From Mucilaginibacter auburnensis (GTDB lineage: Bacteria; Bacteroidota; Bacteroidia; Sphingobacteriales; Sphingobacteriaceae), in NCBI RefSeq assembly GCF_002797815.1, contig NZ_PGFJ01000001.1:558001-622000 (forward strand): a stretch of DNA of 64,000 nucleotides. Direction: 5' to 3'. The position numbers were made by a program, and so were the translations under genes. Below the pieces are notes generated by a model, which did not search any database, was not told where the DNA came from, and saw only the letters and a list, made by a program, of their open reading frames with translations. Below are positions 38,771 to 41,981 of the stretch, piece after piece (the first letter of the stretch is position 1; each line of letters begins with the position of its first letter).

Positions 38771-39568
38771 TTACATTCCGCCGCCCAGATCACCACCGTG
38801 TACACCTTCTTCGCGGAATAACTTGGCACTGAAGTAATCATTATTCATACGACCGATGTTGGTCAGCGTAATTTCTTTCGGGCATTCTGCTTCGCAGGCA
38901 CCGGTATTGGTACAGTTACCAAAACCTTCGTCGTCCATTTGTGCTACCATGGCTTGCACACGGCTCCAACGCTCAGGCTGACCTTGCGGTAACAACGCGA
39001 ACTGCGATACTTTAGCTGATACAAACAACATTGCCGAAGCATTTTTACAAGCTGCAACACACGCGCCGCAACCTATACAAGTTGCAGAGTTAAAGGCCTC
39101 ATCGGCAATAACTTTAGGTATAGCTATCTCGTTAGCATCAGGTACACCACCGGTGTTTACAGATACATAACCACCTGCCTGCTGTATACGGTCAAATGCC
39201 GAACGGTCAACCGCTAAATCTTTAATTACCGGGAAAGCTGCCGCGCGCCATGGCTCAATAGTAATGGTATCGCCATCTTTAAAGCTACGCATGTGCAGCT
39301 GGCAGGTGGTAATAGCACGTTTTGGTCCGTGTGGCTGGCCATTAATATACAGCGAGCACATACCGCAAATACCTTCGCGGCAATCATGGTCAAAGTATAT
39401 CGGGTCTTCGCCTTTTTTGGTAAGGCTTTCGTTCACCACGTCAAGCATTTCCAAAAACGACATATCAGGCGATATGCCATCAGCTTTGTAAGTAACCATT
39501 TTGCCTGAAGTTTGCGCGTTTGGTTGTCTCCAAACTTTCAGGGTTAAATTCATATTTCCGGTACTCAT
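38771..39568 (-). CDS. sdhB: succinate dehydrogenase/fumarate reductase iron-sulfur subunit
   Basis: A 265-residue protein with all three cluster motifs: [2Fe-2S] CREGICGMC (Cys63, 68, 71, with Cys89 further on), [4Fe-4S] [11 protein letters not shown] (Cys164, 167, 170, 174), and [3Fe-4S] Cys219, 225 and 229. It carries electrons between the flavin of SdhA and the membrane subunit SdhC in respiration. It belongs to the sdhC-sdhA-sdhB set, but here 478 bp separate it from sdhA because of the inserted four-helix-bundle unit. Confidence 0.96.
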
Positions 39569-39576
39569 TCTTAATT

Positions 39577-39608
39577 AGATTTGAGATGTGAGATTTGAGA
39601 TGTGAGAT
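39577..39608 (+). repeat. left inverted repeat of the sdh insert
   Basis: Two tandem copies of AGATTTGAGATGTG plus AGAT. It matches the reverse complement of the right repeat (40016-40047) at 29 of 32 positions. Its last base is the first base of the four-helix-bundle gene's stop codon. Confidence 0.9.
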
Positions 39609-39964
39609 CAATTATTTAGCAAAGTTTTTTGAAAAGCATAATTCATCTTCTGCAATTCATCAATCTGCTTTAATATACTATCTAACAACTCATCATTTAA
39701 TAAATTTAATTTATTTGAAATAATTAATTGGGTTTGCAACTCGTAAGACGAACCATTTGCAATTCCCAAAAAATTAGAAAACTCCTTATTTGAATTTCTT
39801 CCTGCACCTTCAGCAATATTTGAAGGAATAGAAACAGCACATCTGCGAGCCTGCCTTGTTAATCCGAACCGCTCATCTTGAGGAAAGCTTGACGTAGCCT
39901 TGTAAACGTCTACGGTCAGATCAATCGCTTTATTCCAGATTTTTAGCTCTTTTAAATTGTGCAT
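39608..39964 (-). CDS. four helix bundle protein (S23/IVP family)
   Basis: A 118-residue helical protein of the 23S rRNA intervening-sequence/four-helix-bundle family: KELKIWNKAIDLTVDVYKAT, RFGLTRQARRCAVSIPSNIAEGAGR, then FLGIANGSSYELQTQLIISNKL. The SIPSNIAEG motif is diagnostic. Relatives include the Avd accessory proteins of diversity-generating retroelements, which form basic pentamers that bind nucleic acid. No reverse transcriptase is visible here. The gene is on the same strand as sdhA and sdhB and would be transcribed with them. The inverted repeats that enclose it suggest it moves or spreads as a unit. Confidence 0.88.
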   Translation of the reverse strand: MHNLKELKIWNKAIDLTVDVYKATSSFPQDERFGLTRQARRCAVSIPSNIAEGAGRNSNKEFSNFLGIANGSSYELQTQLIISNKLNLLNDELLDSILKQIDELQKMNYAFQKTLLNN

Positions 39965-40015
39965 TTTTTAACTCTTAGTTTTGAGGCGTGAAGTTTGATA
40001 TAAAAGCAAAGACAA

Positions 40016-40047
40016 GTCTCATATCTCAAATCTCACGTCTCAAATCT
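40016..40047 (-). repeat. right inverted repeat of the sdh insert
   Basis: On the minus strand it reads as the same 14-bp tandem unit (AGATTTGAGACGTG, AGATTTGAGATATG, AGAC). It shares its last base with the sdhA stop codon. A degenerate copy in the opposite orientation (39979-40000, TTTGAGGCGTGAAG...) can pair with it as a long hairpin upstream of the gene. Confidence 0.9.
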
Positions 40048-41981
40048 TATTTATAGCTCCGTTGTGATGGATGTACAGTTTCAAACACCAGTTGTTCTTT
40101 GTGCAGCACTTCCGGCTGGTTATCACCCGTGTATTGCCATGCACCTACAAACAGGAAGTTCTCATCATCACGTTTAGCTTCACCTTCTTCGGTTTGTGAT
40201 TCTAACCTGAAGTGACCACCGCATGATTCTCTGCGCATCAGCGCGTCATCAACCATAAGTTCGCCCAGTTCAAGGAAATCAGCTACGCGGCCGGCCTTTT
40301 CTAAAGAGGTGTTTGCCTCTTCATTAGCGCCCAATACCATTGCGTTTTTCCAGAAATCGGCTCTCAACTCACGTATCATGCCTTTAGCTTTTGTTAAGCC
40401 TTCTTCGGTACGTGCCATACCGCAGTACTCCCACATAATGTGGCCAAGGTCACGGTGATACTCATCAACAGTTTTATTGCCTTTAAGAGAAAGCAGTTTG
40501 TTAATTCGGTCTAATACATCCTGTTTGGTTTGAGCAAATGCAGGGTGGTTGGTATCCACCGGTTTTGGTCCTATTGTAGCCAGATAATCACCTAAAGTGT
40601 ATGGTATCACGAAGTAACCATCGGCCAAACCTTGCATCAATGCAGATGCACCTAAACGGTTAGCGCCATGGTCAGAGAAGTTACACTCACCTAAAGCGTA
40701 TAAGCCCGGTACCGTGGTCATCAGGTTATAATCAACCCAAAGGCCACCCATTGTATAGTGTACCGCAGGATAAATACGCATTGGTTGGGTGTATGGATCC
40801 TCATTGGTGATCTGGTAATACATGTCAAACAAGTTGCCGTATTTAGCCGCTACCGCATCTTTACCCAAACGCTTAATAGCGTCGGCAAAGTCAAGGAAAA
40901 CAGCAATACCCGAAGCACCTACACCACGGTTATCATCAACCATTTCTTTGGCGTTACGTGATGCAACGTCGCGCGGTACAAGGTTACCGAAAGACGGGTA
41001 TTTACGTTCCAGAAAGTAATCGCGTTCGTCTTCTTTAACGTCAGCAGCTTTTAGCTGGCCTTTGCGCATACGCTCAGCAACTTCCTGTGTTTTTGGTGCC
41101 CATACACGTCCGTCGTTACGTAACGATTCAGACATCAGTGTTAATTTAGACTGATGGTCTCCGGTAACAGGGATACAAGTTGGGTGAATTTGTGTGTAGC
41201 AAGGGTTAGCAAACAAAGCGCCGCGTTTGTGCGCGCGCCATGCAGCTGTAACGTTTGAACCCATTGCATTGGTTGACAGGAAGAATACATTGCCATAACC
41301 ACCCGTACACAATAAAACGGCATGGCCGCTGTGTGTTTCAATAGCGCCTGTAACCATATTACGGGTAACAATACCTTTGGCATGGCCATCAATAGTAACC
41401 ACGTCAAGCATTTCACTGCGGGTGTACATTTTAACCTTGCCTTTATTGATCTGGCGGTTAAGTGCGGAATAAGCGCCTAACAATAATTGTTGTCCGGTTT
41501 GACCACGGGCATAGAACGTACGTGATACCTGAGAGCCACCGAAAGAACGGTTATCAAGCAAACCGCCGTATTCGCGTGCAAAAGGTACACCTTGTGCAAC
41601 GCACTGGTCAATAATATTTACTGAAACCTCTGCCAAACGGTAAACGTTTCCTTCGCGTGCACGGTAATCGCCACCTTTAATGGTATCATAAAACAGGCGG
41701 TAAACACTATCGCCGTCATTCTGATAGTTTTTAGCTGCGTTTATACCACCTTGCGCCGCAATTGAGTGCGCACGGCGTGGGCTATCCTGAAAGCAAAATG
41801 CTTTTACATTATAACCTAATTCGCCAAGCGTAGCTGCTGCCGAGGCTCCTGCCAAACCTGTGCCAACTACAATAACGTCATACTTACGTTTGTTGGCCGG
41901 GTTAACCAGCTTTAAGTTAAATTTATGCTTGCTCCATTTTTCGGCTAAGGGGCCGGCAGGGATCTTCGCGTCTAAATTCAT
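40047..41981 (-). CDS. sdhA: succinate dehydrogenase/fumarate reductase flavoprotein subunit
   Basis: A 644-residue flavoprotein. It has the dinucleotide-binding [10 protein letters not shown] (40-49), the covalent-FAD histidine in [17 protein letters not shown] (His72), and the substrate and FAD-binding [12 protein letters not shown] and [17 protein letters not shown]. The C-terminal helical part ([12 protein letters not shown]-like, here [15 protein letters not shown]) is typical of the Bacteroidota form. It interconverts succinate and fumarate at the inner membrane. It follows sdhC by 49 bp. Confidence 0.96.

Follow-up and report, generated by a model that had tools for sequence, protein, structure and literature searches.

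Inverted arms of 7-nt words frame a four-helix-bundle gene between sdhA and sdhB of Mucilaginibacter auburnensis and recur at 4HB genes of its relatives

Between sdhA and sdhB of Mucilaginibacter auburnensis, within the 64,000-nt stretch of DNA analysed here (the window), lies a four-helix-bundle (4HB) gene of the S23/IVP family enclosed by inverted-repeat arms built from a 7-nt word. The same architecture recurs with different words at other 4HB genes, arrays of a word are associated with the cognate protein type in the two types compared, and the occupants of the junctions turn over between genomes. The reading that we find rather probable is that the insert is a heptad-arm element, that its 4HB protein reads its own word, and that arm-bounded units spread into operon junctions. 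The 4HB family of operon-gap elements is widespread and apparently mobile. In the part of the Coxiella intervening-sequence (IVS) paper drawn on here, the function of S23 proteins is described as not known (PMC4990558). The lineage-specific heptad found next to most 4HB genes studied here is a testable ligand candidate for S23 proteins, and many natural protein-word pairs are available for specificity work. The insert and its host genes comprise:

39608-39964, minus strand: 4HB gene (S23/IVP; PF05635 23S_rRNA_IVP; TIGR02436), 118 aa, from the ORF call and profile matches
39573-39607, no strand: inverted-repeat arm on the gene's 3' side, GAGATNT heptads, outer end TTAG
40017-40051, no strand: inverted-repeat arm on the gene's 5' side, overlapping the stop codon of sdhA
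39977-39990, no strand: degraded third arm between start codon and 5' arm, 79% match
40047-41981, minus strand: sdhA, upstream host gene (ORF; named as in the earlier note, homologues compared)
38771-39568, minus strand: sdhB, downstream host gene (ORF; named as in the earlier note, homologues compared)

The 4HB gene with inverted-repeat bounds that the earlier note had described at this place is real, as seen from the ORF, its profile matches and the arms. The ORF matches PF05635 in Pfam with E 2.7e-40 (137.3 bits, curated cut-off 33.8) and the TIGR02436 four helix bundle model with 129.3 bits (cut-off 24), and PDB 2gsc, an entry with five chains, is a homologue of the 118-aa protein (E 1.3e-22); entry 2rld also has five chains. 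No Pfam domain besides PF05635 was detected in the ORF at E 0.001, and neither the ORFs nor Pfam on this ORF gave a transposase or recombinase within the repeat-bounded unit, in line with the earlier statement that the unit has no transposase. The two arms are complementary at 91% across 35 nt, and a manual count over the core (39577-39608 against 40016-40047) reproduced the 29 of 32 matching positions given before. Their local inverted score is 26, the best of 5000 random placements within the window being 19, a control by which an origin of the arms by chance is set aside as unlikely. The 14-bp tandem units proposed for each arm exist in the left arm as two exact copies of AGATTTGAGATGTG, but 14 nt corresponds to two heptads: the actual repeat unit, GAGATNT, is 7 nt long, with about five per arm in terminal inverted repeats of ~34 nt. 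The right arm overlaps the TAA of sdhA, where an arm end had been placed. A third, degraded copy is likewise present, but the predicted RNA fold of this insert uses the distal arm (29 of the 31 paired 5'-arm bases) instead of the hairpin that had been suggested with this copy. At the third arm's place, at least two heptads are recognisable in 11 of 18 orthologous sdh insertions, and in these the 5' arm has the proximal third arm as an alternative partner to the distal 3' arm. Across sdh orthologues dN/dS was 0.059 for the 4HB gene and 0.046 for sdhB (15 of 91 pairs usable, the rest too saturated); purifying selection acts on the 4HB gene at sdhA-sdhB with roughly the strength seen for sdhB.

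Heptad arms are common beside 4HB genes. Two collections were pooled, 149 genus genomes (PF05635 present in 146) and 80 named loci, with the best-scoring matches taken from both, and loci drawn from both collections were reduced to one copy (L057/L086, L077/L090, L091/L277, L134/L296). Periodicity was assessed at 105 non-duplicate loci with an ORF of at least 95 aa, 3 of 110 loci having been left out for short ORFs before duplicate removal. Within 120 bp, a 7-nt period was found in 120 of 209 4HB flanks against 4 of 609 control windows of the same loci, and no other lag from 4 to 12 was found in more than 9 of the 209. Under a looser threshold that extended to 200 bp, heptads occupied both flanks at 62/104 loci (controls, 1/195), either flank at 93/104 (controls, 12/195) and neither at 11/104. 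For the arm comparison 40 more regions were added (L292 had no usable ORF), and 33 of 146 loci were left out as having no clear arm; the arms were more alike inverted than direct at 73 of the 81 non-duplicate loci with both. Five heptads was the commonest arm length (37/103 and 45/93 arms, counted before duplicate removal), with four and six also common and a range from four to more than eight. Some repeat families look like octamers: units of 8 rather than 7 nt are seemingly present at L143, L150, L309, L202, L204 and L206 (TTGGATTA-, TTTTTCGA-, GGGCAGGA- and GTTGATTA-like). At the variable heptad position, AGATTTG elements pair less often than expected by chance, a level as low being reached in 5 of 2000 shuffles, and AGTATCA elements pair more often than expected. 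The idea that arms avoid perfect pairing, which fits the former, was accordingly dropped; the two types go opposite ways, so there is no single hairpin-pairing rule. L198 and L219, whose sdhB sequences are 98% identical, have a hairpin in common with the right arm rewritten, and arms may thus change quickly. Among the matches listed in the open-access literature, to which the search was directed, no account of a pairing between heptad arms and 4HB genes was found.

The word itself varies with the protein. Heptads include AGATTTG, AGTATCA, AGTATTA, AAGTTGA, ACGTTTT, ATTGCGT and GTTCATG; they differ between 4HB lineages and are shared by related proteins at separate sites. Protein identity was correlated with word similarity in a comparison of 109 non-duplicate loci from which same-site pairs had been left out (Mantel r 0.273; highest of 999 permutations 0.168). 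Heptad similarity scored 5.08 of 7 for proteins at least 70% identical at different sites (95 pairs) and 3.41 of 7 for proteins below 40% identity (1268 pairs). The arrays follow the same division in the 149 genomes. With counts that take in each 4HB gene's own arms and with kinship ignored, AGATTTG arrays had a median of 123 matches where that 4HB type is present (22 genomes) and 31 where it is absent (127 genomes; p 4e-8), and AGTATCA arrays were present in 27/27 genomes with their type and 58/122 without (p 3.5e-8). Each word tested against the other protein type showed no association (p 0.96 and 0.59). The genes taken as cognate include 2 of 22 with an internal stop (AGATTTG type) and 4 of 27 with internal stops or short (AGTATCA type). 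Arrays also occur elsewhere: 20 of the 127 genomes without a close cognate 4HB hold at least 80 AGATTTG matches, and the three genomes without a PF05635 match still hold both kinds of array (4, 16 and 27 matches, and 8, 22 and 2). Because different versions of the protein carry different words, the 4HB protein is probably a sequence-specific reader of its own word.

In the M. auburnensis genome (G000; 4,037,925 bases, 2 contigs) the arms recur mostly as hairpins, and the gene-bearing unit is therefore one of a hairpin family. An 18-nt heptad pattern, at most 3 mismatches being allowed, gave 102 matches, the reversed control 1. From among the matches listed we took 22 further heptad sites, forming 21 loci, one of which holds two; 20 of the 22 showed paired inverted arms on reading (exceptions L036 and L045), L038 and L041 are identical, and a profile scan of the sites yielded 19 distinct arm pairs. 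The loops are short and non-coding, from a few to ~150 bp, and look unrelated to one another by eye. Sixteen hairpins were viewed with 1.5-kb flanks, and both neighbours could be called for 14: these neighbours were co-directional at 12 hairpins, and 7 hairpins lay no more than 7 bp from both. Outer ends are often TTAG/CTAA, and all nine arms bearing both end motifs were exactly 34 nt long, where the pattern permitted 27-43. The search proposed earlier for further arm-flanked 4HB genes succeeded in relatives but not in G000, where PF05635 is represented by an intact gene and a degraded one. The broken gene (L055:1086-1347; C2:1264903-1265143), beside which no heptad arms were seen, lies downstream of a long ORF that is presumably pheT, and another ORF on the same strand follows.

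The sites differ in how closely a protein type keeps to them. AGATTTG-type 4HB genes are present in 22 of the 149 genomes, all at sdhA-sdhB, so that in the genus this copy behaves as a conserved locus, and from its distribution it is not a recent arrival in this genome. Two Pedobacter records, by contrast, carry this type between 3-hydroxyacyl-CoA dehydrogenase and thiolase genes, and one further record carries it between acetyltransferase and amino-acid-kinase genes. Of 18 loci of the AGTATCA type, 11 lie between metH and metF, genes that we name by recognition, and 7 lie at other places, one locus being represented twice among these 7. Besides metH-metF the type occupies at least three junctions: five of the seven were read and are, by our assignment from translations, an ABC-transporter/methyltransferase pair (three loci), trpE/trpG and gnd/zwf.

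Junctions were compared among relatives, as had been proposed, and are both empty and differently filled. Of 70 sdhA-sdhB junctions read, from 70 of the 149 genomes, 19 hold a 4HB unit, 42 other repeat families or mixed words, as hairpins or as single arms (by reading), and 6 other inserts or remnants; in 3 there is no insert and the stop codon overlaps the start. Of 30 metH-metF junctions read, 23 contain a 4HB gene, the words being of four kinds (15, 5, 2 and 1), and 7 contain unrelated palindromes. G058 and G059, with 98% identical sdhB, carry different 4HB genes there, and of three solo hairpins in G058, two are present at the same place in G059 and the third had no flank match there. A third junction contains hairpins in G058 and G018, other inverted repeats in G062 and G005 (by reading) and none in G088, G115 and G039. 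With arms recurring at the 4HB genes of relatives and sites so variously filled, the earlier suggestion that repeat-bounded units use operon gaps as sites is supported. Terminal inverted repeats are present, and no target-site duplication was established at the one filled/empty junction compared; a TA duplication, hinted at by the outer TTAG ends, was not demonstrable at that junction. With duplicates removed, one sdh and one metH-metF copy kept and the longest nearby ORFs taken as neighbours, the 4HB gene lay sense between two co-directional genes at 90 of 97 loci (103/112 before collapsing), opposed one neighbour at 7 and was antisense to both at none.

Outside Bacteroidota, too, heptad arms accompany 4HB genes. 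We read five of the 27 plasmid records that contained a 4HB match: the gene is flanked by AGTAGGG arrays on both sides in Nostoc (L306), by GCTGTTA arrays, weak downstream, in Calothrix, by AGGCAGA arrays in Stanieria and by 8-nt units in Gemmatirosa, and in Azospirillum it lies, with a heptad arm, inside a bacterial large-subunit (23S) rRNA gene (Rfam RF02541). These loci were found via the protein and are therefore no independent evidence against a cargo role of 4HB genes; they establish that arms accompany 4HB genes, from which exclusiveness of arms to 4HB does not follow. On the three cyanobacterial plasmids the 4HB gene is antisense to both neighbours, which in Nostoc are ribonucleotide reductase subunit genes.

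Several known systems resemble the element in part. REP/REPIN-RAYT systems combine dispersed extragenic palindromes with a gene that is bounded by such palindromes and encodes a Y1 (HUH) transposase. The sdh element shares with them dispersed palindromes matching those at the gene (the 102 G000 matches) and a type-specific association; unlike them, it encodes a 4HB protein, no Y1 transposase was found in the ORF, its arms are heptad arrays and it sits inside operons. The earlier proposal of a REP/RAYT-like logic is supported by the association of each of the two 4HB types tested with its cognate arrays in the 149 genomes. Cyanobacterial STRR are short tandemly repeated heptamers, and thus similar in being 7-nt tandem repeats between genes, with the Nostoc plasmid 4HB gene bounded by AGTAGGG arrays. 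By contrast, the part of PMC2408588 consulted, which deals with dispersed repeats between Nostoc genes, describes no pairing of such repeats with a protein. The IVS of 23S rRNA in Coxiella and Leptospira resemble the element in their PF05635 protein, in an S23 ORF set in an inverted-repeat loop and in tandem heptameric repeats, which lie upstream of the Coxiella S23p ORF according to the same part of PMC4990558; the Azospirillum 4HB gene in rRNA with heptad arms adds to the likeness. There the IVS is described as excised by RNase III and in reductive evolution, and a Xanthomonas S23 homologue as a homopentamer forming a pentameric ring (PMC4990558). Unlike these IVS, the sdh insert sits between protein genes and not in a 23S rRNA gene, has many gene-less copies and holds an ORF under purifying selection. 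A distant similarity links the protein to Avd of diversity-generating retroelements (PHROG Avd, E 1.7e-6), a likeness of Avd and PF05635 being remarked on in the part of PMC10053308 seen, but the NCBIfam Avd score of 24.9 bits is below the cut-off of 80 and the adjacent genes are sdhA and sdhB. We assign the protein to S23/IVP and regard the element as akin to IVS and working like REP/RAYT, a member of neither by its defining features; the best reading likens it to REP/RAYT in logic and to IVS in the build of its parts.

In the mechanism that we propose, the 4HB gene would be expressed from the host operon, which is probable given its sense orientation there, and the protein would recognise its own heptad word. 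TRAP is a ring that binds repeated triplets. In a comparable manner each subunit of a pentameric 4HB ring might contact a single heptad of the AG-rich strand, either in RNA or in single-stranded DNA; this stoichiometry is suggested by arms of five heptads together with the five chains in each of 2gsc and 2rld. Arm-bounded units, with or without a gene, would then enter operon stop-start junctions when a cognate 4HB protein is present, the chemistry of spread being supplied by a host or retroelement enzyme. The bias towards sense orientation would be consistent with an RNA step or simply with the need for expression. A broader proposal is offered tentatively, as one that may well prove too wide: S23/IVP proteins would be pentameric readers of 7-nt words, one heptad per subunit, and would define a broad class of bacterial mobile elements with autonomous units of five-heptad arms and non-autonomous gene-less hairpins. 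The rRNA IVS, the Bacteroidota hairpins and some cyanobacterial heptamers would be its branches, and protein and word, having changed together in each lineage, would form a natural specificity code. Such a class offers one possible account for rRNA intervening sequences, cyanobacterial heptamer repeats and Bacteroidota operon hairpins.

The 4HB protein and its hairpins could instead form a regulatory module, in which the protein binds heptad hairpins in mRNAs and controls the decay, processing or translation of the operon neighbours, hairpins being kept where the host benefits. Purifying selection on the 4HB gene close to that on sdhB agrees with such a role, as do the sense orientation at 90/97 loci, the placing of G000 hairpins between co-directional genes (12/14) and within 7 bp of both (7/14), and the capacity of the 5' arm to pair with either the distal arm or the proximal third arm. 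We consider it unlikely, however: across species a single protein type is present in unrelated operons, and among relatives a single junction may be occupied by different families or left empty, a turnover that a conserved regulatory target would not show.

The heptad-arm reading also has to be set against two explanations that give the protein no part in the spread. Were the hairpins MITEs moved by an unrelated transposase, with 4HB genes as cargo, one would understand that most hairpins read lack a gene, that outer ends are often TTAG/CTAA as if for a TA target, and that arrays exist in genomes without a close cognate gene; this is nonetheless quite improbable, as the heptad word follows the 4HB lineage and array abundance follows the cognate 4HB only, in both types. 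Expansion of heptamer microsatellites in the gaps by replication slippage, merely tolerated by 4HB genes, finds some precedent in heptamer direct repeats with no known mechanism of spread, as reported in the part of PMC4679880 seen, and in the varying number of units per arm. It appears highly improbable on the controls for period, inversion and arm length: arms are inverted at 73/81 loci, the 9/9 G000 arms with both end motifs measure exactly 34 nt and have defined outer and inner ends, and a 7-nt period appears in just 4/609 control windows.

Other sequences occupy the same gaps, and sdhA-sdhB and metH-metF are landing sites for many unrelated palindromic elements. Unrelated palindromic repeats of the TCATTCTGAACGAAGTG, CATTGCGAGG and CCCCCTTTAGGGGG types use these operon gaps at L208, L334, L340 and L342-L346. 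At five of the 70 sdhA-sdhB junctions (L190, L196, L218, L229 and L232) the gap is taken up by another small gene, whose protein has a KQAYSAEKAAAFAYQGHA-like motif; AAGAGTC-type arms lie by this gene in L190 and an AGATTTG-like hairpin beside it in L196. In L202, L204, L206, L226 and L228 an AGATTTG-arm remnant, AACTCAAATCTAA, stands behind GTTGATTA hairpins in the sdhA-sdhB gap, and these remnants suggest nested replacement at the junction.
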